Assembly: GCA_017560255.1 (NCBI GenBank) | Contig: JAFYOI010000050.1 | Coordinates: forward strand, 1-64,000 | Length of the DNA: 64,000 nt | Direction: 5' to 3' | DNA from: Clostridia bacterium | Lineage (GTDB): Bacteria; Bacillota; Clostridia; Oscillospirales; Acutalibacteraceae | In this document: positions 4,046-64,000 of the stretch, piece after piece | How the letters are laid out: every line of letters begins with the position of its first letter | Position numbering within the stretch: the stretch's first letter is position 1 | Translations under genes and position numbers: made by a program | Notes under the pieces: generated by a model | What the model saw: only the letters and a program-made list of their open reading frames with translations | Told to the model about the DNA's origin: nothing | Databases searched by the model: none

Positions 4046-5239
4046 CTACAATCTTTTTCTTATCTCTATCGCCTTCAGGCGATACTCTTCTGCTTTTTTC
4101 TTGTCGCCTTTGCAATCATACAGTTCGGAAACGTTTTTACAACCAATCACAAGATATTCGCTATAACGCTTTGGATTTTTTTCAGCGAGATGTTCATATA
4201 TTTCCAAGGCTTTAAGACAATATTTCTCTGCCCTTTTCGGTAAAGTCTGTCTGACATAAAGATTTCCCAGATTGTTACAGATATTTGCATAATCAAGGAT
4301 ATGTTGCACCGGGTTTTCTGCCACAAGTTTTTCTCTTATTTCCAATGCTTCAAGGTAGTATTGCTCCGCTTCCTGCAACATTCCCTGGCAGTCGTAAAAA
4401 ATAGCCGCATTGTAACAGGTATTCGCAAGTTGTGAACTGTACTCTCTTGGATCTGCCTGCGCAAGATGACGTCTTATCGCTATCGCTTTAAGGTAATACT
4501 TCTCCGCATCTTGCATCGCGCCTTGTTTCTTATAAAACAAGCCCATATTACTATAAACAAGCGCAAGTTCCGCGTTATAATCCGTCGGGTTTTCATAAGC
4601 AAGAAATTCATATATTTCAATTGCTTTAAGATAACATGACTCCGCCTGTTTCATTTCTCCCCGATCGAAATAAAAACTACCTAAATTGTTGTACCGACCC
4701 GCAGCTGTTGGATTATAAGATCCGTGGTATTGGTTAATTCCGTCTATATCGCCGTAATTCGTAGTGGGAGCAACACGTCGATCATTCCGACTTTGGGGCG
4801 AGGTTGCATTTGACTGTATTTTCGTATCTGCCACACTTTTCCTTGTAAATCCAATTACACTATTTAAAATTTTCTGAATTTCTACTGAACGTTCATCAAT
4901 GGTGTGAACAGGAACGATCTGTTGATCATTAAGGTACAATTTCATACTGCTGTTAAGTTCAACATCTTCCAGTTTGACGGGAATTACTGTTTTTCCGTTG
5001 GTAATTGCAATATTAACCTCTTTCTTGACCCATTGCGAATTCTGAGAAACGTCCGTCAGCATCAATACAAGACAGGAACAGCCGGTCAAAGCATCATATA
5101 AAACTTCCGCATATTCACTGCCCGCTGGTATATCATACGGTGCCATCCAAGTGTCAATATTATGTTTTTTGAAAAGTTCACGCATTGCGTCTGCAGACGT
5201 CTGATTTTTGGAACTATAACTTATAAACGCATATCCCAT
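4046..5239 (-). CDS. TIR-domain protein with C-terminal TPR repeats
   Basis: A 397-residue cytosolic protein. Residues 1-125 are a TIR domain: GYAFISYSSKN start, WMAPYDIPAGS loop, then SQWVKKE with Glu74 where NAD-cleaving TIRs carry the catalytic Glu. A Ser/Gln-rich linker follows, then about five TPR-like repeats of ~45 residues (NNLGSFYFDRGEMKQAESCY and similar). Bacterial TIR proteins with sensor repeats often consume NAD or make NAD-derived signals in defence (family knowledge). Here the TPRs would bind a partner or trigger. Its place upstream of RyR-domain genes on the same strand is notable because RyR domains have been proposed to bind NAD-derived nucleotides. NADase activity is inferred. 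Confidence 0.85.
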   Translation of the reverse strand: MGYAFISYSSKNQTSADAMRELFKKHNIDTWMAPYDIPAGSEYAEVLYDALTGCSCLVLMLTDVSQNSQWVKKEVNIAITNGKTVIPVKLEDVELNSSMKLYLNDQQIVPVHTIDERSVEIQKILNSVIGFTRKSVADTKIQSNATSPQSRNDRRVAPTTNYGDIDGINQYHGSYNPTAAGRYNNLGSFYFDRGEMKQAESCYLKAIEIYEFLAYENPTDYNAELALVYSNMGLFYKKQGAMQDAEKYYLKAIAIRRHLAQADPREYSSQLANTCYNAAIFYDCQGMLQEAEQYYLEALEIREKLVAENPVQHILDYANICNNLGNLYVRQTLPKRAEKYCLKALEIYEHLAEKNPKRYSEYLVIGCKNVSELYDCKGDKKKAEEYRLKAIEIRKRL

Positions 5240-5288
5240 TTATACATCTCCCGACCTTTTTCGCCACTACCATCTTTTTGATGTCAAA

Positions 5289-5570
5289 TTACTCGATTAC
5301 GTCAAATTCGGATTCAAATCTCTCCTTGAAGATTTCAAACACTGCCATCAGGGTTTCTTCGTCGTCAATTCCGACGTAGTTATTTTCGTCCACGCTGTCG
5401 CCCGCCTCAATTTTCAGAATTACAACGTCGAAGTTTTCTTCCTCACCCACGGGGAAAAGCACAACGTACTCTCCGCCCTTGTACTCGACGTGGTCAAGAA
5501 ATTCAAAATCCACTCTGTTGCCATTTTCATCGGTGAGAGTGATGATATTGTCAAAGCCATCGTTTTTCAT
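5289..5570 (-). CDS. DUF1292-family small acidic protein
   Basis: A 93-residue acidic protein matching the DUF1292 (YrzB-like) pattern: ITLTDENGNRVDFEFLD, then EGKEYVVLFP-like and EENFDVVILKI segments, ending in a helix with DDEETLMAVFEIF. The family is common in Firmicutes, usually near core genes; biochemical role unknown. A good ribosome site precedes the ATG. Adjacent to the TIR-TPR gene (49 bp from its start) on the same strand, so likely the first gene of that transcript. Confidence 0.85.
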   Translation of the reverse strand: MKNDGFDNIITLTDENGNRVDFEFLDHVEYKGGEYVVLFPVGEEENFDVVILKIEAGDSVDENNYVGIDDEETLMAVFEIFKERFESEFDVIE

Positions 5571-5639
5571 GGTAAATCCTCCTGCAAAAATTATATCGAT
5601 ATTGTACCAAAACCGAGCCGTTTAGTCAATCGTATTTAT

Positions 5640-5671
5640 TTTGAACGGCAGGTTTGAACCCCTGCCCTACA
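5640..5671. repeat. Short dispersed palindromic repeat
   Basis: GGCAGGTTTGAACCCCTGCC plus CTAC and flanking TTTTCA-rich sequence closely resembles 51126-51160. It is a REP-like hairpin with no coding content. The rest of 5571-5809 holds no gene I can support. Confidence 0.6.
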
Positions 5672-5809
5672 GTTTTCACTCTTTGTCGGCTTTTTCGATG
5701 AATATTTAAACTCGTCACCTAAGGGGGAAATCGAAATTCCCCCTTAGCCAAAGCATCGGTTAACCTCTTTTGAACCACGCGGCTATCGTACGGTTTTCGT
5801 TATACAAAA

Positions 5810-5837
5810 AATCCCTGCCCGTTACCGAGCAGGGATT
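5810..5837 (-). terminator. Terminator of the RyR gene
   Basis: Arms AATCCCTGC and GCAGGGATT followed on the minus strand by six Ts, immediately after the stop of the small RyR gene. It marks the end of the RyR transcript. Confidence 0.85.
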
Positions 5838-5842
5838 TTCTA

Positions 5843-6124
5843 TTATTTCTTTTCGATTTTGTAACCGAGCGCCACAATAAGTTTCAGCGTTTCAAACGCT
5901 GTCACGCGGTCAAATTCCTTTTCTTCCTCGGTCAACTGACTGTACGGCACAAGGCAGGGCGTGGTCTTTTTTTCATCGTCACGTTCCTCACCGTAAACCC
6001 AGCCGTCCTTGATTCTGCCCGCCGACCAGTTTTCGTGCACGTTTTCCGCAATCTTCTCGGTCAGGTCAAGCAATTCCTGCGGCAATTCAACTCCGCTCAG
6101 ATCAATCGGTTTAGGTTCGTACAT
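5843..6124 (-). CDS. Stand-alone RyR (ryanodine receptor-type) domain protein
   Basis: A 93-residue protein that is a single RyR domain. The family pattern is visible: YEPKPIDLSGVELP lead, then ENVHENWSAGRIKDGWVYG, CLVPYSQLTEEEKEFDR and the terminal helix TLKLIVALGY. RyR domains occur in bacterial proteins outside eukaryotic calcium channels and are thought to bind small, possibly nucleotide-derived, ligands (from memory). It lies 51 bp after the stop of a large membrane protein that also ends in an RyR domain, and would share its transcript. Possible role: soluble ligand binder or competitor. Domain call firm, role unknown. Confidence 0.85.
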   Translation of the reverse strand: MYEPKPIDLSGVELPQELLDLTEKIAENVHENWSAGRIKDGWVYGEERDDEKKTTPCLVPYSQLTEEEKEFDRVTAFETLKLIVALGYKIEKK

Positions 6125-6175
6125 ATTATCTCCCCTTTATCTCAATTATAAAATTGTACGCTATCCGTGTTTAAT

Positions 6176-8785
6176 TTATTCTTTGGAGAAACTATCTTTT
6201 ATTTTTTTGTACACTCCGTTGGTTTCACTGACTTTTACAATCTTTGTTCCCAAGCCGTCCTGCGCGTTTTCAAGAACTTTTAAAGCAACGTCGTACTCAT
6301 CAGCCGTAATGCCGTCCTTTTTAAGTTTTTTGCAGATAATTTCATTTAAACGAGCAGCGGAAATGTACCACACTTCTTTATGGTAGTACAAATTTACCGA
6401 AAGTGTTTTGTGAAGAACGTGACCTTCCTTAAAAATCGGTGCGGGGTATTTTTCGTTCAGAATTTCCGAAATTTTCTCCGCTTTAACGTCCTCCATAGGA
6501 TAATCCCAACGCTTGAAATCGTCCATAACTTCCCACACGGGTTCTTTTCCCTTCTTATCCTCATATTCCTGAGTTTTGCGCTTCCGCAGATCAAGACTAA
6601 GATCGTCAAGGAAATCGTGCGACTCGAACGCCGTAAATTCGGACTCGGTAACCATTATACCTCTGTCATCAATTTGTGAACTTATATCACCATTTCTGTT
6701 TGTTTCAACCAGACAAGGATGAATTTTTAGCGGCAACATTTTGTGACCTACGCCAAGCGACCAATACTTTGTATAATCACCCCATCTGAAGCCGTTTGCT
6801 CTGAGGAACGCATTCCAGCGGCGGTGCTCAAGCCAAGCAAGCGAAACAATCTCACTGCGGTTATCCGGATGGTCTTTATGGTGTTCAACAACGTAGCGCG
6901 CATATTTTTCCCTTGCGACACTTACAGCATCAAAATATTCCTTTGCATTCTTACTCTCAAAAATTGATTTTTCAAATATTCCTGCAGAAAAGACTTTGTA
7001 GTTGTAGTGGTGTGAACGGGCAATATTTGCCTTATATGAGTAAATATCCTTGAATCTATTTGCGTTTGACTCGGCACGGTATTTATCGGAAGTTTTAGAC
7101 TTTTCATCGTAACTGTTGCCAATTGCAAGCGCCGCTTCCAATTCCTCGCCGAAGAACACGTTTTTAACGCTGTAAACCTCATCCATACAACCAAACGCCC
7201 ACATAAAGACGTTCTCCAGGCCTTTCTGCTTCGGCTTTTTGTTGAGAGAACGGCAAAGTTCGGAGTTGTAAACAACGTACGCGATGATTGCTTTCTTTTT
7301 CGGATTTTCATAGATAACGTGCGTTCCGACGCTCTGTCTGATTTTGTCGGCAACTGCGAAATTGTCCTCATCCGAACCGAGTGCAACGATGAAATAATCC
7401 GAATCTATCAAGCGGAAACCGTCGTCAATCTCATCATTCATAAGTTTTGAAAAATTATCGCTGAGAACGTCTGAGCGATGGTATCGGTATCTGAAATACG
7501 GCGGATTTTTGTCACCGTTTTTATTGTAACTCAAAATCTCGTCGTTCGGATCGGCGGTTCGGAAAATGTCTGGGTTGACGTAATTTATCCTGCCCTCAAA
7601 ATCGCCCTCATCAAAATTCTTGCCATCGCATTTTTGCTTTTCCTTTGATACAACGTTTATACACAGTTCACAGTCAAGTATCTGACCGAACCAATACGTC
7701 GCAAGGAAGAACTGCGTACCGATTGCGCCACTGCCGAAAATTGTGACGTTGAGTTTCTTTTTACCCTGTGTTCCGGAATTAATCAGAGGCTCATACAAGG
7801 GCAAATCGCGCAGCAAAGTGTACGCCATATTTCGTGTGCCATCAACAGGAACGACTGTGGGCAATCTCTTTTCGGCATCTTCGCCGAGTGTGTCAGTCCT
7901 CTGCTTTACTATATATGTAATCTCCTCACCGATAAGTGAGAACTTTTTATCGGTTGAAAAAACGTAAATTTCCGTATCGGAAATTGGCTCTGTGCTCTTT
8001 TCAAGTATTTCCGTGAGCACCTGCAGATTTCTGTTTTCATCGTTACTGATAAGCAGGATTTTTCTGTTTGCGCTCTTGTTGCCGATTGCTTCCACAATGT
8101 CCTTTTTGACGCAGACAGCCCCTGCACTTTTTGCCGCTCTCAAAAGGCTTTCGTCGGTGTTGTCATCAACCCCTGCAAAGATAAAGAACTTTTTTACATC
8201 AACGTTAAAGGTGTCAATTATATTGTTCATCAAAGCAACGGATTGTTCGTTGAGTTCACTGAAATAATATCTCTCCTTGCGCTTTTTCTTGTTGACAAAC
8301 CAAAGACGAAGCGATGGGAAGAAATTGGCAAGCACTTCCAACACGATTGCACCGCCGACGATGGGAGAAACGAAGTTGATAACGCTTGTATACGCACTGT
8401 AAGCGCCAACCCACGCCTCACTGTCATTCTCACGAAGTTCGCTCACCATTTGTTTGCCGTCAGCAAGGTAGTCGGTATACTCTTCATCCATACTGAACGT
8501 CTGCAAAGAGTGGATAAAACTGTTCACTATTTCCTCGGACCAGTGCAGTCCGTCATCAGCCGTTTCCGCCGACGTACTGTTCTGCGGCTTGTTATACGTT
8601 CTGTAAAGTCCGACGGGGTAGCGCAGGCACCACACCGCCGCAAGCAATATCATAATAAAAACGAGCATTGACTTTCCTTTGCCTCGGTTCTTCGGTTTGC
8701 GCAAAGCAAACACAACAGCACCAACCGTGGCCAATGCCGACAAAATCAAACAAATTATTATTGCAATTTTTACGCAACAATCCAT
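6176..8785 (-). CDS. Membrane protein with tandem TrkA-N-like Rossmann domains and a C-terminal RyR domain
   Basis: An 869-residue protein. Three hydrophobic segments lie in the first ~150 residues (about 5-28, 40-62 and 115-150). Then come two Rossmann-like domains: about 200-330, and from 347 with a glycine motif GSGAIG (349-354) and YFIVALGSDEDN later. A RyR-like domain begins at EHRRW (653-657) and includes a KIHPCLVET segment. Two nucleotide-binding domains behind a membrane region recall RCK-gated CASTOR/POLLUX-type channels, but no pore filter is visible. It is clearly homologous to the 56326-58158 product (VVYNS, LGSDE, LEHRRW). I start at the ATG at 8785 with GGCGGAG upstream; a TTG at 8851 is possible. 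Likely a ligand-sensing membrane protein. Confidence 0.75.
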   Translation of the reverse strand: MDCCVKIAIIICLILSALATVGAVVFALRKPKNRGKGKSMLVFIMILLAAVWCLRYPVGLYRTYNKPQNSTSAETADDGLHWSEEIVNSFIHSLQTFSMDEEYTDYLADGKQMVSELRENDSEAWVGAYSAYTSVINFVSPIVGGAIVLEVLANFFPSLRLWFVNKKKRKERYYFSELNEQSVALMNNIIDTFNVDVKKFFIFAGVDDNTDESLLRAAKSAGAVCVKKDIVEAIGNKSANRKILLISNDENRNLQVLTEILEKSTEPISDTEIYVFSTDKKFSLIGEEITYIVKQRTDTLGEDAEKRLPTVVPVDGTRNMAYTLLRDLPLYEPLINSGTQGKKKLNVTIFGSGAIGTQFFLATYWFGQILDCELCINVVSKEKQKCDGKNFDEGDFEGRINYVNPDIFRTADPNDEILSYNKNGDKNPPYFRYRYHRSDVLSDNFSKLMNDEIDDGFRLIDSDYFIVALGSDEDNFAVADKIRQSVGTHVIYENPKKKAIIAYVVYNSELCRSLNKKPKQKGLENVFMWAFGCMDEVYSVKNVFFGEELEAALAIGNSYDEKSKTSDKYRAESNANRFKDIYSYKANIARSHHYNYKVFSAGIFEKSIFESKNAKEYFDAVSVAREKYARYVVEHHKDHPDNRSEIVSLAWLEHRRWNAFLRANGFRWGDYTKYWSLGVGHKMLPLKIHPCLVETNRNGDISSQIDDRGIMVTESEFTAFESHDFLDDLSLDLRKRKTQEYEDKKGKEPVWEVMDDFKRWDYPMEDVKAEKISEILNEKYPAPIFKEGHVLHKTLSVNLYYHKEVWYISAARLNEIICKKLKKDGITADEYDVALKVLENAQDGLGTKIVKVSETNGVYKKIKDSFSKE

Positions 8786-8845
8786 AAACTCCGCCGCCTT
8801 TCGACAAAATCTTACTATTTCTATTCTACTGCCACCAATACACAA

Positions 8846-8878
8846 TGTCAATGTTGAACTTTATATTCAACATTGACA
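8846..8878. promoter_or_regulatory. Perfect 13-bp inverted repeat between the VirD4-like and RyR membrane genes
   Basis: Arms TGTCAATGTTGAA and TTCAACATTGACA with a 7-base loop, centred in the gap after the VirD4-like stop codon. No T-run follows on the minus strand, so it is not a standard terminator. It could be an operator, an RNA processing site or an attenuator that sets the ratio of the two halves of the operon. Confidence 0.7.
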
Positions 8879-8890
8879 CCGGCTTTATTT

Positions 8891-10537
8891 TTAATCGATT
8901 TTATAGATGTATTTCTTGTTGGAAAAATCAAGTTTTGCGGGTCTGTCGCTTGTGTCTGCAAGGCGGTGAGTAAACTCTTTACAAAGGTAACTGCGCTCCA
9001 TTCTTGACCACAGAACATCCGCTCGCATCTGGGTAACCACACATTCGCCGGGGGCTATCTTCGTCAATTTGCTGACGGGCACAAGCGGTACGACGTCCTT
9101 TTCGTACACCTCGATACTCTCGCCCTTACCGTTGAGTGCGGAAGTCGGTGCGATGACCGTTTTAAGTCCGCATTCCTCGGAGAAATCACGCTTCGTCTGC
9201 GGATTGTTCGTACCGAAAAACAAGTGTGTATTAAGGTTGTCCTTGATAATCTCCGCCGTTTCTTTGCCGTACACGTTGTAAAGTTGTGCGTATGACTGCA
9301 AGATAAGCAAAAACCAGATGTTACGACCACCACAAGCGGAAATTACCTTATCAAAACTGTTGAACGGCGGCAGGTTGCCGAACTCGTCAAGCAGGAAGTA
9401 AAACGGGCGGTCAAGTTGTGAGCCCTTTGAGCGTGCAATCGCAATCAGTTCTGTGTAGAGAGTGCTCAAAAACATTGTGATAATTTCGTAATGCAGTTCC
9501 TCCTCGTCCTTGAACGCCACGAAAATTGCCGTCGGCGCACCGTCATCAAGTTCGGACATCTCAAAAGTGTTGGCGCAGGTAATTCTGCGCACGCTCGTGT
9601 CACGGAATTTATTCATCTTTGTGGCAAGGGTTGAAGTGATGCATCTTCTTGTGTTTTCCGCTTGCTCGAGAATACACTTATGAGCAAGGTTTCTCGCTTT
9701 GGAAGTCGCTTTGTCACGCTGTGAAAAATATCCGTTATCATAACCGCTGATTCGTCCGCGTGCATCGGAAAAACTGTCCATAATTCGAAGTGCGGTATCG
9801 AACGAGAAATTGTCCTCAGTAATCTTACCCGTCTTGCTGTCCTCAAGCATACCGTACAGAATCGCTTTGAGCAGATCTCGTGCAGAATCTTCCCAGAACG
9901 GATCTTTTGTGTCCATTTTGGGCACGATAGCAGCAACGAGGGTTGTAAGACCCTTCTCAACCTCGTCAAAATAACCGTCACTTTTCTCGTCCGCATAGCG
10001 AAGCATTGCCGACAGACTTCTGAACTTTTTATCGTCCATCTGGAATCCGTTACCGTTCGGCATACTGTTTTCCATCACCTCGTTTGTAATGTTGCAATAC
10101 TTGCGGTACAAACGGAAATATTTTGTAAGCGGATTCCAGCAATCGCTGTGACGATAGTCGGTAAAGTCGAGCAAAAGCACTCTGTAACCCTGCTTTTCAA
10201 GCATTTTCGCGTTGCGCTCGTACAACTCTTTCTTCGGGTCACTGATTACCATATTAGGTTTATTCTTTTTAGCGGCAAGCACGTTGATTGTGGGGATAAC
10301 GTAACCCGTTGTCTTACCGCTTCGTGTAGCACCGATTGCAAGAAGGTGTGTGTCGGGCGTGAATGTAACGTCCAATTTTCCATCGTCCCCCCTTGTAATG
10401 CAAAGCGGGATACCGTCGATATTCTTCTTGCCAAGTTCGTCAAACTTGAACGTTGCATCGGTGTGCTGCTGTCTGTATTCTTCAACCGTCAGAAGTTTGG
10501 TATTCTCGTAATCCTTAAAAACGTCAATTTTTCGCAT
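8891..10537 (-). CDS. VirD4/TraG-like coupling ATPase without membrane anchor
   Basis: A 548-residue P-loop ATPase of the type IV coupling protein group. Walker A is GATRSGKT (69-76); Walker B is FYFLLDEFGNLP (Asp384-Glu385); the QSYAQL and later TAEIIKDN segments also fit TraG/VirD4. In conjugation these hexamers pump DNA or protein through a type IV secretion channel at the membrane. Here there is no N-terminal membrane segment, and no relaxase, VirB4 or other transfer gene in the window. It overlaps the upstream Lon-like gene by 14 bases, so they are translationally coupled. I infer a recruited motor in a non-conjugative system, perhaps using the RyR membrane protein as its anchor. Confidence 0.85.
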   Translation of the reverse strand: MRKIDVFKDYENTKLLTVEEYRQQHTDATFKFDELGKKNIDGIPLCITRGDDGKLDVTFTPDTHLLAIGATRSGKTTGYVIPTINVLAAKKNKPNMVISDPKKELYERNAKMLEKQGYRVLLLDFTDYRHSDCWNPLTKYFRLYRKYCNITNEVMENSMPNGNGFQMDDKKFRSLSAMLRYADEKSDGYFDEVEKGLTTLVAAIVPKMDTKDPFWEDSARDLLKAILYGMLEDSKTGKITEDNFSFDTALRIMDSFSDARGRISGYDNGYFSQRDKATSKARNLAHKCILEQAENTRRCITSTLATKMNKFRDTSVRRITCANTFEMSELDDGAPTAIFVAFKDEEELHYEIITMFLSTLYTELIAIARSKGSQLDRPFYFLLDEFGNLPPFNSFDKVISACGGRNIWFLLILQSYAQLYNVYGKETAEIIKDNLNTHLFFGTNNPQTKRDFSEECGLKTVIAPTSALNGKGESIEVYEKDVVPLVPVSKLTKIAPGECVVTQMRADVLWSRMERSYLCKEFTHRLADTSDRPAKLDFSNKKYIYKID

Positions 10538-12191
10538 CGTAGTTTCCTCCTATATAACCGAAACCGCCACGCTTTGTGCTTGCGGGGGTCTTCTCCTTGC
10601 AAACCGCCTTGATCACGTCAAGTGTGACAACGTCTTTCTTCTCAAAAATCGTCTTTTTAATTGCGCTGTCGATGATATTTCGGATAAGGCGCGAATCGTA
10701 ATCAGCCAAAAACTGCTTGCAACCCTCATCCATCGTCATACCAATGCAACCAAAGGAATTGATGCGTGAAGCGAAAATTGAAGCGACGACGAGCGTTTTC
10801 TCATCGGTTTCAATATTCTTTGCCCACACTGTGTCGCACACCTTGGACAATCTGAGCGATGCGCTGTTTCTCTCGTTTGCAAAGAGTACGAAAGTGGATT
10901 CCGACAAGTCAAGAGTAACGTTGGGATTGAACATCTTGAAACTCTTTCTGTGGTTATAATCAAGCATGCTGAAAATTCTGTCGAGTTTTTCGCCCTCAAG
11001 TTCATCACAATGGGTGATAACAAAAACGGTGTGCGCGGATTTAGTCTTTGCAAGGCCGCGCAAAAAGACGTTCTCTCTGGACGGCACAAGGTCTACGTCG
11101 GTAAGGTTGGAAGCGTCGACCTCCACCACCGAATCCGCGCCATAACCGCTTTCAATCATCCGACGATACATCTGCAAAACGTAACCGTCGGACGATACGA
11201 TGAGAAGCGGCGTTCTTGCCACGGCGGGACAAGAGGTTGTGATAGTCACGTTCTGCAAAACCTCGTTGATTTCGTCCTCTCTTGTGAGCACAATTTCTTT
11301 TACGCTTGCGCCGTCAAACTCGTGACAACCGCTCCAATCAACGTCAAAGGGAATGTCGGCAAGGGCGGCGATTGCACCCTCCTGACGAGTGAGGAGAAGT
11401 TTCTCTTTATCCTGCGCGGAAATGAGCGAGGAAAAGGCAATCTTTGCAAAACTCTTGTCGTAAGTACTGCGGTCGATTATCTCCATTGCAAAAGCCTTAT
11501 CGATAAGCCTTGCGGTTGAATTGCGAGGGATATCGGTACTGTGCGAATAGGTTAAACAGATATGTTCAAGCGCTTTCTTCTGACTTGACGTTTTGAGTAC
11601 GGTGCGGAGAATCTCATAATAGAGTTCAGTGTTTTCCGCATCGTATCTGATGCCGAGCAAGTTACCGAAAAGGTTGTTCCACTTTGCACACGCCTTCATT
11701 CTTTTAAGTGCGGCATATTTGTCCTCGCACAAGCCGAGTCCGTGGTATTCCATATATGAAAGAGTAGCCATCGCGTCGATGTTGCCGTTGACCGCCGTTG
11801 TGAGAAGCGCCTCGAAAACGCCCTCCAAAGTCAGGTTTTTCTCTTCCTTGAAAATATTTGTGCGAATCTGCATCGCCTCACGCTTCTGCACCATAATCAT
11901 TCGGTCAACGTCCGTCAGTTCAATATCCTGACCGCTTTTAAGCGCAAACTCGACCATTCTGCTGAAACGCTCGTACGAGGTGATGTCGGTTATGTCACGA
12001 AAGTGGTCCTCGCAGGACTGGGTAAAATATTCTTCAAGTTCTTCATCGTGCGGCAGGCAAAAAACGCTTGAAAGTTCAAAGAAAAGTTTTCTTCTCTCCT
12101 CGTCCGTCAACGCTCTGCCGAGAATTGCCTCAATAAAGTAGTAATACTTAAGGAAGCATTCAAACAAATAATCGTTAATCATACGAATCAT
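10524..12191 (-). CDS. Sel1-like repeat plus degenerate Lon-type AAA+ protein
   Basis: A 555-residue protein. Residues ~136-171 resemble a Sel1 repeat (AMATLSYMEYHGLGLCEDKY). Residues ~326-535 align by eye with the AAA+ module of LonA: a Walker B-like VFVITHCDELEG (Asp396-Glu397), then FSMLDYNHRKSF...VTLDLSESTFVLFAN, matching Lon LLEVLDPEQN...YDLSDVMFVATAN, and an AAA lid. The Walker A position (LLIVSSDGYVLQ, 329-340) lacks GxxGxGK[S/T], so ATP hydrolysis is unlikely. The Lon protease domain is absent. It starts inside the last codons of the ClpP-like gene (4-base overlap), which suggests an adaptor or unfoldase-like partner for that peptidase. Lon relation is inference from motif order. Confidence 0.6.
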   Translation of the reverse strand: MIRMINDYLFECFLKYYYFIEAILGRALTDEERRKLFFELSSVFCLPHDEELEEYFTQSCEDHFRDITDITSYERFSRMVEFALKSGQDIELTDVDRMIMVQKREAMQIRTNIFKEEKNLTLEGVFEALLTTAVNGNIDAMATLSYMEYHGLGLCEDKYAALKRMKACAKWNNLFGNLLGIRYDAENTELYYEILRTVLKTSSQKKALEHICLTYSHSTDIPRNSTARLIDKAFAMEIIDRSTYDKSFAKIAFSSLISAQDKEKLLLTRQEGAIAALADIPFDVDWSGCHEFDGASVKEIVLTREDEINEVLQNVTITTSCPAVARTPLLIVSSDGYVLQMYRRMIESGYGADSVVEVDASNLTDVDLVPSRENVFLRGLAKTKSAHTVFVITHCDELEGEKLDRIFSMLDYNHRKSFKMFNPNVTLDLSESTFVLFANERNSASLRLSKVCDTVWAKNIETDEKTLVVASIFASRINSFGCIGMTMDEGCKQFLADYDSRLIRNIIDSAIKKTIFEKKDVVTLDVIKAVCKEKTPASTKRGGFGYIGGNYDAKN

Positions 12192-12784
12192 CCTCCAATT
12201 GCTTTGATAATTTTTGGTGTAAGCACCGCATCGACAAGGCCGTACTCAACCGCTTCCTGAGCGGTCATCGTGTAATCTCTGTCCGTGTCGGCGGCAATCT
12301 GTTCAATCGTCTTGCCCGTATTCATGGCAAGGATTGAGTTGAGTGTGCCTCTGGTGCGCTCAATGTGGCGTGCAGCGATGATGATATCGGACGCCTGACC
12401 CTGCGCGCCTCCCAAGGGCTGATGAATAAGAATCTCACTGTTCGGCAGTGCAAGTCGCAAGCCCTTTGAACCCGACGAGAGCAGGAACGCGCCCATCGAA
12501 GCGGCAAGACCGACACAAATTGTACGTACTCTGCAGTTAAGCGAGTTGATTGTGTCGTATATTGCAAGTCCATCGCTTACACAACCACCGGGACTGTTGA
12601 TAAGTATTGTCAGTACGCGCTCCTCCTCGGGCAGATTTTCATCAATCATCTTCTGCTCGATATAGTGCATCTGCGGAATGACGCGCGCCGCCATACCCGT
12701 TTCTATCGGACCGAAGATATACACCTGATTTTTGCTGAGCAAATACTGGTCCGACAATACCTCTCTCATTCTTTCTCTTGACAT
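12188..12784 (-). CDS. ClpP-type serine peptidase (accessory paralogue)
   Basis: A 198-residue ClpP family protein with the full triad: Ser96 in GLAASMG, His121 in LIHQPLGG, Asp170 in DTDRDYTM, spaced as in E. coli ClpP. The INSPGG oxyanion segment is present. The N-terminus lacks the usual RLL-type axial loop sequence and starts differently (SDQYLLSKNQVYIFGPI), so it may not dock ClpX or ClpA and may pair with a dedicated AAA+ protein. No clpX lies nearby; the next gene is the Lon-like AAA+ protein with a 4-base overlap, followed by the VirD4-like ATPase. First gene of this transcript. Enzyme class firm; special pairing inferred. Confidence 0.9.
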   Translation of the reverse strand: MSRERMREVLSDQYLLSKNQVYIFGPIETGMAARVIPQMHYIEQKMIDENLPEEERVLTILINSPGGCVSDGLAIYDTINSLNCRVRTICVGLAASMGAFLLSSGSKGLRLALPNSEILIHQPLGGAQGQASDIIIAARHIERTRGTLNSILAMNTGKTIEQIAADTDRDYTMTAQEAVEYGLVDAVLTPKIIKAIGG

Positions 12785-12961
12785 TTTTACAACATCCTTT
12801 CTTAATTTATTTCAAATGTATAACGCAAGACCCACGCCCGATTTCGCGTAAATTTGCGTTGAATATGGGAATATTTTGTAAAACATTGACGATGACTACC
12901 CTTAGAAAACAACGCCCGGTCAGGCCTTTTTTCGCACGAAAAAAATACATTTGCAAAAACA

Positions 12962-12991
12962 AAAAGGAACGACACACAGGTCGTTCCTTTT
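12962..12991 (-). terminator. Terminator of the membrane coiled-coil gene
   Basis: Arms AAAAGGAACGAC and GTCGTTCCTTTT followed by T-rich sequence on the minus strand. It separates the 13011-14141 gene from the ClpP-like transcript. The 12785-12960 stretch should hold the ClpP operon promoter, which I could not pin down. Confidence 0.85.
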
Positions 12992-13010
12992 AATATTTTA
13001 TAATCAATAT

Positions 13011-14141
13011 TTATCTCGGTCTGTATGAAGCACACCCAAGGGCATCCTTTCCCCTTATCTTACATCTTCCAGAAAAAACACATTGTGCACATTTTCTACC
13101 CTGTGCCTCCACATCCATTTTTTCAATCAATCTTTGTTTACATTTTTCCACTTCCTGTTGTTCGTCCTCTTCGCGTCTGCGTCGGGCATCAAGCCCTCTC
13201 TGCAACTCCAGCTCACGTTCACGGTGCTGAATTTCCTCATACAGATTTATTGCTTCCTTGAGTGAATCCGCTCTGCCGTTTTTTATAAGAGCAATAAACT
13301 CTCCAATAGCATAAACATAATCATCGCTCACAAGGTCATTGTTTTCCTCAAACGCTTCAAAAGCAGGGATATATTCCTCGCGGTATATCCTGTCTTTCTC
13401 CTGTGCACGTTTCTGTTCAAGTTTGCGGCTGATATCAGCCTCTTCTTCCTCGATTGATTTTTGTACTGCCAACAATTCCTCGCAATCCTTTATAAATGAT
13501 TCCTGATTATCATTATACTCTTTAACTTTGGCGTTGTAAGCCTCCATCTCTTTTTCATACTGCTCGTTAATCGCTGCCACCTTTTGATTATATTTCTCAA
13601 GTTTCGCTTCATATTTTTCCGTTCTGTTTTCGGCATTCTCTTTCAACTTAACTTTGCCCTTGATATAACTTGCCATAGCAAAAAACAAAAGTGCGACCGC
13701 AAGGATAAGCCACAACCACGCTTCCCCTGTGTTGCCTCCCTTTTTAACGAAAAAATATACCAGACAAATAAAAGCAACAATAGCAATTATCACCGATTTT
13801 AACAGTACCGATTTGTGATTATTCTTTTCGTTTTCTTTTTCTTTTTTCTTGTACTCCATCGGCTTGGTCGGCATTTTTTTCGTAGGCTTCTCCGGAGTAA
13901 AATAATCTTTATAAATTGTGAGCAAATCCTCCTGTGTGCCGGATTTCAGCACCGCACGGTAAACCCTCTCTCCCCATCTGCCTTTAAAATCGGGTTCGTG
14001 GACCGTTCTTTCGTAATCATCAACCACCGTATGTTTAACGTTATTCATCTTTGTTTTCGCTGCAGACACACGAGAATACAAATCCTTAATCATTTCAAGT
14101 TTTATCACAAGGTCTTTACAACTAAGATTGTTGTCACCCAT
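13011..14141 (-). CDS. Membrane-anchored coiled-coil protein with a C-terminal Cys cluster
   Basis: A 376-residue protein of unknown function. Residues 1-105 are helical and basic; two hydrophobic segments lie at about 115-135 (SVIIAIVAFICLVYFF) and 145-163 (AWLWLILAVALLFFAMAS); then a long charged coiled coil (about 165-335); then a C-terminal CAQCVFSGRC...GC cluster that could bind a metal. AAGGTG precedes the ATG. It sits upstream of the ClpP-AAA-VirD4-RyR set on the same strand but ends in its own terminator, so membership of that system is only possible. The coiled coil style resembles that of the 38950-40668 product. Confidence 0.6.
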   Translation of the reverse strand: MGDNNLSCKDLVIKLEMIKDLYSRVSAAKTKMNNVKHTVVDDYERTVHEPDFKGRWGERVYRAVLKSGTQEDLLTIYKDYFTPEKPTKKMPTKPMEYKKKEKENEKNNHKSVLLKSVIIAIVAFICLVYFFVKKGGNTGEAWLWLILAVALLFFAMASYIKGKVKLKENAENRTEKYEAKLEKYNQKVAAINEQYEKEMEAYNAKVKEYNDNQESFIKDCEELLAVQKSIEEEEADISRKLEQKRAQEKDRIYREEYIPAFEAFEENNDLVSDDYVYAIGEFIALIKNGRADSLKEAINLYEEIQHRERELELQRGLDARRRREEDEQQEVEKCKQRLIEKMDVEAQGRKCAQCVFSGRCKIRGKDALGCASYRPR

Positions 14142-56325: not shown

Positions 56326-58158
56326 TTATTTCTTGCTCTCTGCGGAAACGCGGTAATCTTTTGCTTTATCATCGTCGGTCAACTCATCGGTTAAGTTGTT
56401 GTGCATCTTACCAAGGTCGTTACGACTGCTCCTTTCGGGACTGCCGCTGTAAACGTATCCATCCGCGCGCATATACGCTTCCCATCTGCGATGTTCAAGC
56501 GCGCCGAGCGTTTCTCTCTCGTAGTCCGTCATTTCGTCCTCGCTCTTGCCCGCGCCGGGAATATTACAACTGATTCGCGCCTTTGCGTGAACCGCCGTTG
56601 CAATTGACGAGCGGTAGCAATACTCATACTTCCAGAAATCGTCCTCTTTCTCCTTGTCGCCGTAGCAATACGCAACGTGACGGGCAAACGCATCTTTTTC
56701 AAGCGCCGAGGCAATAATAACATCCTTTGAGTAAAGCGAATTTATATCTCCGACAAACTCAATATCATAACTCTGCGCCTTGCTCTTACGCGCGTTTGAC
56801 AGCAACTCTCTGGCGTTACTGTTATACACAACCGTCTGAATTATCGGTTTTATATTCATTCTCTCAAACAACATACGGAGCATTACTGCCGTTGCAACGT
56901 TTTTCTCGTCCGAGCCGAGCGATACGAAAACGTAGGTTGCATCGGTTAGTTTTGAAATCTCATCCGCAAACTTCTTTGTGTCAACGTCAACGTCGGACTT
57001 GACTTCTATTCCGTAATTATTTTTTATAAGTCCGGGTGCCTGCGCCTCAAATTTATCTGCCGCCGCTTTGTCGCGGTCAAATGCGGTTATATTGAGCAGG
57101 TATCCGTCCATCTGACCGTACCACGAAAGAGCCTTGACCATCTCCGTGCCGTGACCGCCCATTCCGACAACTACGGCGGAAATATGTTTGAGAGTTTCGG
57201 AAACGGGGGTTGCGCGTGCAAAAACCCGGTCGCCCTTTTCGTACAGAATTCGGGTTACAAGTGAACGTACCTCGTCAATTCGGTGAATTTTCATCTTACC
57301 CGCAGACTTGCCCGCAAGGAGAAGTTCGCTCTCCGTACCCTTTGAGAAAATATACAAGCGGGTATGGGCGCGGTTATTGTAAATGCTTATAAGTTTGAGT
57401 GAATCGTTCACGTTGACGATATCGTCGCCGCTCATTGTGAAAAAGAGTATACGCTTTTTCTTGCTATGCAGTCCGAATTTGATTTCCGTAATATCCTTTT
57501 TAAAACAAATTGCGCCAAGTGCCCTCGCCTCTCCCATCAGTTCCTCGGAAACCTGAGCAACTCCATCGGAAGTTACGGTAAATACAATGCGCACCATGGG
57601 GTCATCTGCCAGAACGTCCTTTGCAAGCGCAAGCGAACGCTCATTGACACGGGAGAAAACGTAAATTTCACGCCTCCAACTCATAAGATAGCGCACGTAT
57701 GCCGAAACGTTTTTGAAGAACGAAAGCACAAAACTGACGGCAAGAAGCGGCGCTATGAACTGCGTTACGTAAGTAATCACAAGATAGGGCTTTGCTATCC
57801 ACACAGGCGCTGCCGAGATGTTTTCAACAATCGGCGCATAAATGCCGTCCGCTGCAAACACACGGATTGCCTTCTGAAACGCCACGACGATGGATTTTAA
57901 TATGCCCAACGCATCCGTGCCGTTTGCCGTAAAGTATGCCGGCAGGGCAAGTGTCACCGACAAGACGAAGCACAATCCGAACAGAATGTGAATCGCATTT
58001 ATTCGCTTGCCGTATTTGCCGATTGATGCAAGTATCAGAACGAATGCAAGCACAATCGCAAACAACGACAACAAGAAAAAGATTGTCCAAATCAAATTAA
58101 TCACCTGACTAAATTTACTTAAAGTGAAAGCGATTTGCTCGGGACAAACCGCTTTCAC
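56326..58158 (-). CDS. Second membrane protein with Rossmann/TrkA-N-like and RyR domains
   Basis: A 610-residue paralogue of the 6176-8785 product. Three membrane segments in the first ~160 residues (about 20-45, 52-78, 116-150) are followed by two Rossmann-like domains (from about 165, REIYVFSRVNE; and from 327 with GMGGHG at 332-337), with SLGSDEKN and VVYNSNAREL, and a short RyR-like domain (EHRRW at 555-559, KMHNNLTDELTDDDKAKD). It lacks the ~200-residue C-terminal extension of its paralogue. Read from a GTG at 58158, but no clear ribosome site; a GTG at 58104 is possible. It follows the giant protein by 18 bases, so the pair are co-transcribed. Confidence 0.72.
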   Translation of the reverse strand: MKAVCPEQIAFTLSKFSQVINLIWTIFFLLSLFAIVLAFVLILASIGKYGKRINAIHILFGLCFVLSVTLALPAYFTANGTDALGILKSIVVAFQKAIRVFAADGIYAPIVENISAAPVWIAKPYLVITYVTQFIAPLLAVSFVLSFFKNVSAYVRYLMSWRREIYVFSRVNERSLALAKDVLADDPMVRIVFTVTSDGVAQVSEELMGEARALGAICFKKDITEIKFGLHSKKKRILFFTMSGDDIVNVNDSLKLISIYNNRAHTRLYIFSKGTESELLLAGKSAGKMKIHRIDEVRSLVTRILYEKGDRVFARATPVSETLKHISAVVVGMGGHGTEMVKALSWYGQMDGYLLNITAFDRDKAAADKFEAQAPGLIKNNYGIEVKSDVDVDTKKFADEISKLTDATYVFVSLGSDEKNVATAVMLRMLFERMNIKPIIQTVVYNSNARELLSNARKSKAQSYDIEFVGDINSLYSKDVIIASALEKDAFARHVAYCYGDKEKEDDFWKYEYCYRSSIATAVHAKARISCNIPGAGKSEDEMTDYERETLGALEHRRWEAYMRADGYVYSGSPERSSRNDLGKMHNNLTDELTDDDKAKDYRVSAESKK

Positions 58159-58176
58159 AAATTGAATTAATATGTT

Positions 58177-61100
58177 TTATTCGTACTTGAACCAGATGGT
58201 CGCGGTGTACAATCTGTCAAGGAAAAGATAACTTTCCGCGTTTGTTTCACAAATCTTCCTGTCACCTTTCGATGCGGCTCTGAGCATCTCAAAAACGTCG
58301 GAACGGTTGAGAAGTTTGTCCCTTGCGGTGCCGTAAGACATTTTGTCAGCAAACTTGAAGCAGACGTACTTGCTGCCTCGTTTTGCCGCCGCTTTCGCAA
58401 GTTCCTTGATTTTGTCAAGGTCGTAAGTGTCAAATACAAGTCCGTTGTGAACGAAGTAATTGCAACGTGTTGCCGTACACTTTGTGGGCTCAACGGGACA
58501 ATACTCCAGATTTCTCGTTCTGAGCAACTCCTCCGTAGTGATACAGAAGAAGGAGTGATGGTAACAGTTATCCTTTACCTTCTGGCTGGTGCTGGACTGG
58601 TCGTTGTGAGTGACGTCGAGGTAGTAATAATCGCCGTCCATTTTTACAATATTCCACGCGTGACCTCCGCCGAGCGAACCGTCCTTTTCAATCACCTTGC
58701 CCGCACAATAACCACACTCAACGCCGCAGCGCTGGAGAAGATACTGAATAGCCTTTGCATAACCCGCGCAAACAACCTTGCGATTGAGGAACACTCCGCA
58801 AATCGTGCGTAAGTAGTCAAGTTTATTTTCCGTGGGCCCGCCCATCGACTCCTCTATATGCAGAGAAACTGTGTCGTAGTCCACAAGATCAATCATTTTT
58901 GTCTGCAAACGCAAGGCAACGTCATATGCGCTCATTGAATCGTCAACACAGGCAAGATACGTCTGAATCTCCGCCTCCATCTTGTTATTCATCGCCTGCA
59001 CTTCCTCTTCTGTGAACAGATAATGCAGTTCAAGATGGTCAGTATAAATAAGCGTAGCGTTGTAGTTGAAATAATACAACTCGGGGTGGTCGTAGCAGAC
59101 CGATTTAAGCGCGGTTTCCACGTTACGTGTGTTGCTGCAATCAATATTTACAGTGGACTGGAAATTGACCATAGCGTCAAAGATTGCAGTATACATTTCA
59201 CGTAAATTTGCGGACAACAAGGAATAGTAATAATAGTTCAGTTTTTCGGGAGCAACTCTATCGTGAGTTTCGGGGGTGTAGGAACGTCCGAAATCAACGT
59301 CATCATAGGTCGTCTTTTTAGGAACGGTCACAACGGGTTTGTCACCAGATCCACCCGAACCACCCGTTCCGCCCATACCGTAAACGTCCGTCAGATAAAG
59401 GAACGGATTGTTGTTGTACTTGGGATTTGCAAGCAATTCGCGGACAAGGCGGCGATAACCCACGCCCGATATTTCACGTGAAGTTTCATAATGTCTTGCC
59501 CTGACGGTTGCAAGCGCATTCTCGTTAAGGAAGCGCAGATACTGAATTCCGACCAAGGCAACGTGTCCCTGCGCAAGTTCATCCTCAAGATTCGGCAGAT
59601 GCTTGCTCTGCCATATCTGAGTCAACTGGCGCACTATCATTTCGGAAAGCAGAGGCGACGTTACGCTCTCCTCTATGTAAACTTTCTTCTTATCAACGTA
59701 ACTCTTTGCAGGATAATCCGTCGAATTTGATGCAAGTTCGGGATTCTTTTTGAGAGAGTTGATTATCTTTATCGTTGACTCGAAACAGAAGTCGTAATCA
59801 TCTCCGAGTTCAATTCCGTAGGTGCTTTCAAGGAAGAATTTTGCACGTTTGAGGTGCTCTTCCAACTCCCTCTTATTATTTTTTACAAGGCTCTTTGCAC
59901 AGTCCGGGCACATATATCTGCCGTCTTCAAGTTCGATTACGCCCGAGCCCTTTGAGTAGCGTTTTCCGCAGAAATTACATTCAACGCTCTCAATAAATTC
60001 CTCAGGTTCAAGGAATTCGTACTTGCTCATATCGTCGGCAAAAACTCTGAGCACTTCGCGCAAGGATTCAAAATCGAAGCAGTCCGGAGCAGTATCAAAA
60101 CCGAGGTTGAGATAACCGCTCTGCGCGCCCGAGCCAAAATACCATTCGATATAGGAAAGAAGCGGGGTATAAAGAGTCTTGAAAACGTGGTCACCCGCAA
60201 GCACAAGGGTTGAAACTACGCCGAGTTCTTCCGCACTGTCCTCAATAATCAAAACTTCAATTTCGTCTTCACCGTCACCCTCGCGGCTGAGAAGTGAAAG
60301 TTGCGGATACATACCAAGCGTATCCTTTGTTTTTTCCGCAAATTCCTTGCTCCATACGGGGCAGACTACAACACTGTCTGCAACGGACGGGAACATTGCA
60401 CGGAGTAATTCGCAAAGCGCAACCGCCATAGCCGTTGCAGTAACGTCCTTTTTGCCGCCGTAATTACCGCGGATTTTGAGCGACATTGTCAACGCGCCGT
60501 TACGGTAAGCGTTAAGATCAGCCACCTTCATTATCTCGTCCGCCGAGTAGGTTCGCTCCTCGTCCTTCATTCCGTAAACGCGGTACGTCTGTTTTGCCAA
60601 TACGTCCTTGCCCGGATCGGAAATAGACCAGTATCTTGACTGCTCAATATGCGGGTCAAGGGTATAGGGGTCAACTATATAATATCCGCGTGTCAGTACC
60701 TCCGTGGGCGCTCTGAATACGGAAACAAAAGCCTCACTAATGCCGAGTTTGTTGTCCTTTCGGTCACGTATCAACAAATGCCTTCTCGGCACGCACTCAA
60801 CGACACTGTCCTCGGAATCGTCAACTCTGTACACTCTTGACTGAATATACTTATACGCCTCGTTATTATTGCCGCCATCGGCAAGATGAGCGTAAATTTT
60901 TCCGTTCGCAGCGTCAATCCTTACCACTGAATAAATACTACCATTATAAATGAACTTCTGGCCCTCAATATAATTCTGTGTAAGGCGGCACTTCGGCACG
61001 TTCAATTTGACTTCCTCGTCACCGACAACCATAACAACCATATCACGACCGTTGATGATGTCAAAAACAGTTCCTCTCTGTCTGAGGATAACCTTGTTCT

Positions 61101-63414: not shown

Positions 63415-64000
63415 CAATCTGACCCCCCTTGGTTTTTGTTTGGCACTTGATTGCTTCAATTACGGATACATCAAGCACGGTATAGAATTTAATATTATCT
63501 TCACCAACACAGAACGGCACTGTGTAATCAATCTTCATCGGCACGTCGTGGGTTGAAGCGTTATTATCAAATTCCATACTCAGATCCTGCATAATGTTAC
63601 CGATAGCATTTACTCTGTCATGCATTTTCTGTGCGTGATGCTTAACCTTTGCCGTTGCCATATCGCAACAATCACGGAAAAATTCAACGTCCAGTTTGTG
63701 CTCATAAACAGCCCTGAGCGACGGGATTTTTATGCTGAGCAAGGTTTCATACGCTTTTGCGGCGGCAACGTTGCGCGCAAGTTGCTTGTTCGTGTCTTCA
63801 AGAAGTTTCTGCCACGCCTCAAAGCATCGCCTCATCTGTCGCTTTTTCAGAACAAAATAAATAACGTAAAGCAACACACCCGGAAGAACGAACGAGCCCA
63901 CAAACAAAAGTTTTGTAACGGGATTTGCCATAAAATCAAACCACTGGCTGATAACGAAGGGCGCATAGACGAAAATAAGTGCAATCCACATAAATACGCC
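63389..64000 (-). CDS. Membrane protein with coiled region, cut by the window edge
   Basis: The reading frame stays open to the end of the window, so the true start is probably outside. The visible part (about 203 residues) has two hydrophobic segments near its start (MWIALIFVYAPFVISQWF, LLFVGSFVLPGVLLYVIYFV), then a charged helical domain and a beta-rich tail. Its 3' end overlaps the giant gene's start by 26 bases, so it belongs to the same operon. No domain recognised. Confidence 0.6.
   Translation of the reverse strand, partial: GVFMWIALIFVYAPFVISQWFDFMANPVTKLLFVGSFVLPGVLLYVIYFVLKKRQMRRCFEAWQKLLEDTNKQLARNVAAAKAYETLLSIKIPSLRAVYEHKLDVEFFRDCCDMATAKVKHHAQKMHDRVNAIGNIMQDLSMEFDNNASTHDVPMKIDYTVPFCVGEDNIKFYTVLDVSVIEAIKCQTKTKGGQIDGIIEIHY

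Follow-up and report, generated by a model that had tools for sequence, protein, structure and literature searches.

A predicted five-gene ClpP unit with a degenerate Lon-type AAA+ module, a soluble VirD4-like ATPase and RyR-type proteins in a Clostridia bacterium

The window analysed here, the first 64,000 nucleotides of contig JAFYOI010000050.1 (assembly GCA_017560255.1) from a Clostridia bacterium of the family Acutalibacteraceae, carries five consecutive minus-strand genes. The first three, from ClpP downwards, specify a ClpP peptidase, a Lon-type AAA+ module and a soluble VirD4-like ATPase; the last two specify a membrane protein with RCK-like (TrkA-like) and RyR-like regions (the RyR/RCK protein) and a single-domain RyR protein. 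The ClpP-Lon-VirD4 core recurs in other genomes, where the motifs of ClpP and the VirD4-like protein are intact and the ATPase motifs of the Lon-like protein are ruined. It is tentatively proposed that the set constitutes a protease switched on by an adenine nucleotide, probably one of the ADP-ribose type, and that the VirD4-like motor probably feeds ClpP through the dead Lon-type module.

The five-gene unit and the recurrence of its core

The strand-aligned order of the five genes, reported in a first-pass annotation of the sequence, was recovered in full. From ClpP downwards the gaps between the open reading frames (ORFs) run from -4 through -14 and +39 to +51 bp at the RyR gene, and are followed by gaps of +272 bp to a DUF1292 gene and +49 bp to a gene for a TIR-TPR protein. 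Terminator-like hairpins lie at both ends (Table 1); the one 3' of the RyR gene was absent from the list of the pattern scan and was found by folding. The predicted transcription unit therefore comprises the five genes from ClpP to RyR (12784 down to 5843), and the DUF1292, TIR-TPR and 376-residue transmembrane (TM) genes are predicted to be separate units. The first-pass annotation had drawn a single locus of 4046-14141, an extent that is ruled out by the bracketing hairpins; the TIR-TPR, DUF1292 and 376-residue proteins also have no BLAST match in the other nine core loci. The parts of the unit have a GC content of 0.43-0.49, close to the 2-kb mean of the window (0.446, standard deviation 0.039). 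For the RyR/RCK gene, a start at ATG 8785 (869 residues) is likelier than TTG 8851 (891-residue ORF), the homologue cluster P0001 being 869 residues long, and leaves a gap of 105 bp to the VirD4-like gene. Neither the Lon-like protein nor the 891-residue ORF has a Pfam match at E<=1.

The alignments used in this study were thinned by hand, with fragments left out. A scan of species genomes with the first Lon-like alignment (A1, the window protein and 23 others) yielded eight loci, all in Clostridia-type metagenome assemblies, and one more locus, L023, came from the 394 genomes sampled in the order, giving ten core loci with the window included. In all ten the Lon-like ORF is directly followed by an overlapping VirD4-like ORF (split into two ORFs in L002), and in eight it is directly preceded by ClpP. 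The loci L007 and L023 are on short contigs, where the remaining part of the neighbourhood is not visible.

Within the order, the Lon-like protein was found in 4 of 394 genomes (E<=1e-20), the VirD4-like protein at 52-100% identity in 4 of 384, and locus-type ClpP (70% identity or more, E<=1e-60) in 4 of 384. At these cut-offs the three proteins share the same four genomes (G000, G392, G517 and G570), which represent four families. Five further genomes hold only VirD4 relatives that are 30-34% identical, in open frames of 667-717 residues. The genome searches score just a few candidates per genome. Each of the three homologue searches was confined to the 7988-8000 candidates with the most words in common, so that homologue counts are lower bounds. 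Indirect evidence of further linked copies comes from contig sizes: for 17 of the 77 Lon-like clusters, the longest contig equals in size that of one of the 120 listed VirD4-like clusters (one of these being the window's own contig), whereas a shifted-size control gave 0.35 coincidences on average and 3 at most.

A wide distribution of the core was rejected, since a sample of 391 genomes of the class returned one full-length match, from the genome of the window itself, besides seven partial matches, mostly to Lon-sized ORFs. A plasmid or phage origin of the locus was likewise rejected: a search of 72,556 plasmid records with the Lon-like protein found nothing, the scanned viral contigs yielded no relative of it, and the RyR/RCK protein had no match in the plasmid records.

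A protein of about 180 residues is encoded directly after VirD4 in five of the ten core loci and is a possible DNA-binding partner; that of L003 has a weak winged-helix match (HTH_45, 0.012). Downstream of the core, L002 (16518-17423) and L008 (9948-10748) encode proteins that by eye resemble ADP-ribosylglycohydrolases and would fit ADP-ribose-type signalling.

Table 1. Features of the window and of related loci. Positions without a locus name refer to the window.
Feature	Position	Strand	Evidence or remark
Dedicated ClpP peptidase, 198 aa	12188..12784	minus	PF00574 1.1e-61
Lon-type AAA+ module, no Lon protease domain	10524..12191	minus	likely 552 aa from 12182; profile and fold comparison
Soluble VirD4-like ATPase, 548 aa	8891..10537	minus	PF02534 1.8e-49, PF12696 7.4e-27; motifs, hydropathy
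RyR/RCK (RyR/TrkA-like) membrane protein, 869 aa	6176..8785	minus	ORF opens at 8851
Single-domain RyR protein, 93 aa	5843..6124	minus	PF02026 1.7e-36, 124.8 bits (cut-off 27.4)
TIR-TPR protein, 397 aa, outside unit	4046..5239	minus	TIR_2 4.5e-17 and TPRs
DUF1292 gene, outside unit	5289..5570		
376-aa TM gene, outside unit	13011..14141		
Terminator-like hairpin 3' of RyR gene	5803..5843	minus	-27.8 kcal/mol, z -9.9, U run
Terminator-like hairpin between 376-aa gene and ClpP	12955..12995	minus	-16 kcal/mol, z -6.4
Tail motif FGYIGG (FG(Y)xGG-type), candidate ClpP-docking peptide	10545..10562	minus	role inferred
Pore-helix-like segment, residues 84-106, EExxNSxxHxLQTFSMDEDYTxY	8468..8536	minus	role inferred
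RyR-like C-terminal region, residues 653-761	6503..6829	minus	EHRRW, KxHPCLVE, FKxxDYP
About 180-aa gene 3' of VirD4	L003 5197-5757		
About 180-aa gene 3' of VirD4	L004 13314-13847		
About 180-aa gene 3' of VirD4	L006 13327-13860		
About 180-aa gene 3' of VirD4	L009 13328-13885		
About 180-aa gene 3' of VirD4	L023 1825-2379		
Card1-like CARF nuclease	L002 13771-14892		
Card1-like CARF nuclease	L003 9129-10388		
Card1-like CARF nuclease	L004 15257-16513		
Card1-like CARF nuclease	L005 16966-18174		

Features of the encoded proteins

ClpP peptidases are driven by Clp-type unfoldases. The ClpP of the locus retains the catalytic Ser/His/Asp in alignments to solved ClpPs and to ten housekeeping ClpPs; for this triad, as for the N-terminal segment, we assume the usual roles. 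When the eight locus ClpPs are aligned with the ten housekeeping ones, the canonical EQTxRGERxYDI-like N-terminal segment is replaced, 6-7 residues are inserted ahead of INSPGG, and Leu occupies in 8/8 locus proteins a position where Tyr is kept by 10/10 housekeeping proteins. This Tyr is presumably situated in the cleft where AAA+ partners dock. The replaced N-terminus, the insertion and the lost Tyr alter the probable docking face, and therefore point to a changed partner. On a ClpP tree the eight locus and ten housekeeping rows fall on opposite sides of one branch with support of 100/100. A second ClpP, 54% identical, is encoded elsewhere in the genome of the window, and a second, housekeeping-type ClpP occurs in all eight ClpP-bearing core genomes at 48-63% identity (the match in G767 contains a stop codon). 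The genomes of the ClpP-less loci L007 and L008 have a housekeeping match of 51-52%, one of them with an additional weak match of 26%, and no locus-type ClpP was found in them.

The N-terminal part of the Lon-like protein is helical and includes a Sel1-like repeat; it is followed by a predicted AAA+ fold of the Lon type, according to profile comparison and comparison of a modelled structure. The Lon protease domain is not present: alignments of the model to Lon mostly stop at residues 533-541, and the protein ends at 552. The description of this AAA+ protein as degenerate in the first-pass annotation proved correct, as both Walker A and Walker B are lost; among the 46 rows of a second alignment (A2, drawn from 77 Lon-like homologues), a P-loop is present in none and both Walker B acids in one. 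The C-terminal tail is predicted to be disordered (residues 532-552, pLDDT under 50) and nevertheless carries a conserved motif, with F in 46/46 and Y in 41/46 rows. It reads FGY in 8/8 ClpP-linked loci and FGQ in 2/2 loci without ClpP, and may serve to dock the module to ClpP.

The VirD4-like protein contains the motifs GATRSGKT and YFLLDE. Both Walker motifs are kept in all 120 listed members of its clusters (of 980 found), which are 518-570 residues long. No other ATPase of the core is intact, which makes the VirD4-like protein its likely power source.

In the RyR/RCK protein, three hydrophobic helices and a pore-helix-like segment are followed by two RCK-like Rossmann domains, modelled as two tandem RCK folds, and a divergent C-terminal RyR-like region. 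In an alignment of 70 sequences (A3, from 120 listed RyR/RCK homologues of 320 found), the pore-like segment is conserved at T96 (67/70), D100 (66/70) and E101 (68/70), and the RyR-like end at H654 (68/70), W657 (70/70), H689 (70/70) and D761 (70/70). The C-terminal end is likely of the RyR type, judging from these residues, from five of the 120 listed relatives that carry PF02026, and from members of a shorter class of RyR/RCK proteins that match RyR by blastp (best 7e-7). No RyR chain was among the 50 listed fold matches of the model, a result that is uninformative, the RyR-like end not having been folded separately. A distant relative (24% identity, E 3e-16) is encoded, unannotated, in a scaffold labelled Bacteriophage sp. 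(L026, MT835673.1, 16848-18410).

The single RyR protein matches animal RyR and bacterial RyR structures. Its H30, W33 and D72 have the same spacing as H75, W78 and D117 of RyDEP, as taken from the text of the preprint describing that enzyme rather than from a sequence alignment. RyDEP is a phage RyR-domain enzyme reported to cleave 2'/3'cADPR (PMC13232231).

Genes associated with the core and with RyR/RCK proteins

RyR/RCK relatives were found in 20 of the 394 genomes of the order (E<=1e-10), and one stretch of each of the 19 other genomes was examined, several of these stretches ending at contig ends. An AAA/AAA/peptidase M41 protein of 1124-1172 residues adjoins RyR/RCK or is one gene off in L055, L057 and L061. 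The last of these (G408:C62, 6567-14431) is a tight operon of RCK598, AAA/AAA/M41, RCK659, RyR94 and TIR110, with gaps of 16, 44, 16 and 19 bp and a second TIR gene upstream; it is the closest match to the composition given in the first-pass annotation, but with another protease. L058 contains two RyR/RCK genes and a TIR-LRR gene, and most remaining stretches show no AAA/M41- or TIR-type partner by BLAST.

RyR/RCK thus has a TIR gene as a neighbour in the window region, L058 and L061, which is 3 of the 20 RyR/RCK genomes (by BLAST, a lower bound, as the second TIR gene of L061 was missed). Between 1 and 10 TIR matches were present in each of 12 genomes tested, so a TIR gene within some kilobases is not rare, and TIR was rejected as a fixed component on both counts. 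The TIR-TPR gene, which the first-pass annotation had counted as part of the locus, is real, but lies beyond a terminator-like hairpin and the DUF1292 gene, and its link is weaker than had been claimed. The protein has the motif WVKKE, including E74, which we take to be the functional TIR glutamate, and is a possible signal maker from outside the unit. A further TIR match lies about 10 kb past the window.

Four of the core loci, L002-L005, encode CARF-PD-(D/E)XK (Card1-like) nucleases; L053 and L054, both of one genus, have such a gene near RyR/RCK. The L004 protein scores 28.3 bits against PF09002 (cut-off 26.4) and 2.4e-28 in PADLOC. Type III CRISPR was rejected as their partner, because the Csm1 model exceeded its cut-off in none of five genomes tested and gave sub-cut-off matches in two; the genomes of L002-L005 have no Csm1 over the cut-off despite their Card1-like genes.

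Sigma-like genes occur in four and anti-sigma-like genes in seven of the ten core loci, and both were also detected by BLAST in the RyR/RCK loci L057 and L071. The sigma-like genes overlap or adjoin the anti-sigma-like ones, of which 9/9 aligned contain Hx3Cx2C. The best family matches of four sigma-like proteins are to sigma70-ECF, at 1.6e-5 in L071 and 0.001-0.008 in L003, L005 and L057, and one of four anti-sigma-like proteins, that of L071, matches RsrA (0.0023). Most anti-sigma-like proteins match no anti-sigma model.

The minus strand of 56326-64000 in the window encodes a second RyR/RCK-type membrane protein of 610 residues, 43% identical to that of L005, adjoined by a 1760-residue protein that has four hydrophobic stretches besides weak matches of transglutaminase-like and ClpX-zinc-finger type, and by a further TM gene. 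Relatives of these are also found adjacent to RyR/RCK, or close to it, in L059, L069, L070 and L071. In L060 (9514-19901) and L070 (8977-19901), RyR/RCK genes are followed by genes for a protein of 792-919 residues (weak vWA match in L060) and one of 1193-1198 residues (Tubulin_2, 4.1e-57 in L060), possibly another RyR/RCK-linked system.

Proposed mechanism, alternatives and relation to known systems

In the proposed mechanism, a signal derived from NAD or an oligoadenylate would be made by TIR or another enzyme, possibly encoded elsewhere, and sensed by the RyR/RCK and RyR proteins. It would then activate a ClpP assembly at the membrane, with the dead Lon-type module as its entry and the VirD4-like protein as its motor, and a substrate would be degraded, which in relatives with sigma- and anti-sigma-like genes is likely to be the anti-sigma-like protein. 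This presumes that the proteins form rings and a common complex in which the FG(Y)xGG tail docks to ClpP, and that the nucleotide read is NAD-derived; the response would likely be directed against invaders. The suggestion of the first-pass annotation, a ligand-triggered machine coupling a DNA/protein motor to proteolysis, is in this way partly supported. A bolder version, which appears unlikely, would be a new class of ATP-dependent protease in which a VirD4/FtsK-type motor feeds ClpP through a Lon ring that is dead and protease-less, and in which a bacterial RyR-like channel acts as the gate, its RCK ring and RyR region reading immune signals of the cyclic ADP-ribose (cADPR) type, in parallel to the action of cADPR on animal RyR.

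Several observations weigh against the proposed mechanism. The neighbourhood survey that had been suggested as a check of the whole set bears out the Lon-VirD4 pair and, in most loci, ClpP, whereas RyR/RCK accompanies them in only four of ten loci (the window, L003, L005 and L006); in the latter three it is of the shorter class and 22-24% identical to the protein of the window. A promoter-like site (8851-8823, 11/12) precedes the likely start of the RyR/RCK gene, which may accordingly have transcription of its own. The 869-residue protein has no PF02026 match, its RyR-like end is only weakly related to the single RyR protein in a pairwise hhalign comparison (E 0.007, probability 5.5), and its model retrieved nothing at E<=0.001 in Foldseek. 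The single RyR protein has T55 in place of RyDEP H100, and a T at this position is common to 7/7 single RyR proteins aligned. Of the other phage RyR homologues tested, 6/8 are reported to bind 2'/3'cADPR and none to cleave it (PMC13232231). TIR is outside the predicted unit. The FGY/FGQ contrast is based on two related ClpP-less loci, and the genomic context of the five non-FGY rows was seen for two at most.

A rather doubtful alternative is that the ClpP-Lon-VirD4 core and the two RyR-type genes are neighbouring modules of a defence island, physically uncoupled from each other. It would account for the greater frequency of RyR/RCK relatives (20 genomes of the 394 sampled, compared with 4 that have the core), for their association with other neighbours, such as M41 proteases, vWA- and tubulin-like genes, transglutaminase-like giants and CARF nucleases, and for the promoter-like site and the 105 bp that separate VirD4 from the likely RyR/RCK start. 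However, the pattern scan lists no terminator-like site between these two genes (although it likewise failed to list the hairpin 3' of the RyR gene), and the fold of 8853-8893 has a z of -1.8. The presence of RyR/RCK in 4/10 core loci also compares with about 5% of sampled genomes, and equal contig sizes suggest that all three genes lie together on two more contigs, and RyR/RCK with one core gene on another two, where chance gives 0.4-0.5 on average and at most 2-3 per list pair. The set might instead be a proteolytic transcription switch resembling CalpL/T/S, in which the signalled ClpP complex destroys a zinc-type anti-sigma factor and frees a sigma factor. The sigma-like genes overlapping or abutting Hx3Cx2C anti-sigma-like genes in relatives are consistent with such a switch, as is the cleavage of the anti-sigma CalpT by CalpL on cA4, described in PMC11417357 and PMC11229360. 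This idea is nonetheless somewhat unlikely: all sigma and anti-sigma matches scanned fall below curated cut-offs, no such gene or pair was found in the window at E<=0.01, and for the relatives the switch would be a special case of the mechanism proposed here.

It is very improbable that the locus is left over from a conjugative element, or accessory to one, with the VirD4-like protein still acting as a coupling protein, although this protein belongs to the VirD4 superfamily, scores 248.2 bits against conju_CD1115 (cut-off 250), and has in L023 a PcfJ-like gene at the cut-off (25 bits) for company. The first-pass annotation had named constant association with a relaxase as evidence against its reading; no relaxase was found on the core contigs, and PF03432 is present in three of the ten core genomes, every time on another contig. 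AAA_10 (PF12846, VirB4-type) never exceeds its cut-off in the ten genomes and gives weak matches in five, a weak test, as the relaxase-bearing G000 shows none either. A membrane anchor, scored as a 19-residue stretch with a mean hydropathy of 1.6 or more within the first 120 residues, is missing from all 120 listed VirD4-like relatives, and the longer relatives of 667-717 residues are only 30-34% identical.

If the proposed protease is confirmed, its ClpP lineage, which has a remodelled docking face and was encountered only together with a dead Lon-type module and a VirD4-type motor, would broaden the known ways of powering a compartmental protease, and soluble VirD4-like proteins would gain a role outside conjugation. 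RyR-type regions occur on predicted gating rings, some beside TIR, CARF and protease genes, and the RyR/RCK proteins allow a direct test of two ideas: that RyR domains are ancient sensors for NAD-derived signals, and that bacteria possess nucleotide-gated channels of the RyR type.

The first-pass annotation knew of no named system with this set, and no paper with this composition was found in a literature that was mainly open-access, including passages of PMC12419801, PMC7016017, PMC8195603, PMC9503650 and PMC11229360; earlier domain surveys may mention parts of it. Like ClpXP and ClpAP, it pairs a ClpP with catalytic residues and an AAA+-fold partner encoded next to it, but the partner is of the Lon type without working ATPase motifs, the ClpP is remodelled at its N-terminus, insertion and Leu, and a VirD4-like ATPase is added. 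Compared with Lon itself, the locus protein has no protease domain and no Walker A/B, and has a Sel1-like helical N-terminus and the FG(Y)xGG tail. Nucleotide-linked, Lon-related proteolysis and the sigma/anti-sigma-like genes of some loci recall CalpL/T/S, but no SAVED or Lon protease match is present in the five unit proteins, ClpP and VirD4-like proteins stand in their place, and Csm1 does not exceed its cut-off in the five genomes tested. Thoeris is similar in the nearby TIR protein and the predicted ADP-ribose-type signal; it differs in that no ThsA was detected by PADLOC among eight proteins scanned, TIR is outside the unit (Thoeris ThcB4 reached 29.6 bits against a cut-off of 220), and the predicted sensor is RyR/RCK. 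In contrast to the RCK gating rings of CASTOR/DMI1, TrkA and BK, the RyR/RCK protein, a possible channel, combines a RyR-like end with the pore-like QTFSMDEDY. The phage RyDEP shares the RyR domain (PF02026) and the spacing of its H, W and D, whereas here the domain belongs to a bacterial operon, H100 is replaced by T55 in the single RyR protein, and a related region ends an RCK membrane protein. Finally, the VirD4-like protein resembles VirD4/TraG coupling proteins in its motor domain, TraG-D_C domain and Walker motifs, and departs from them in that it has no membrane anchor and that no relaxase was found on the core contigs.

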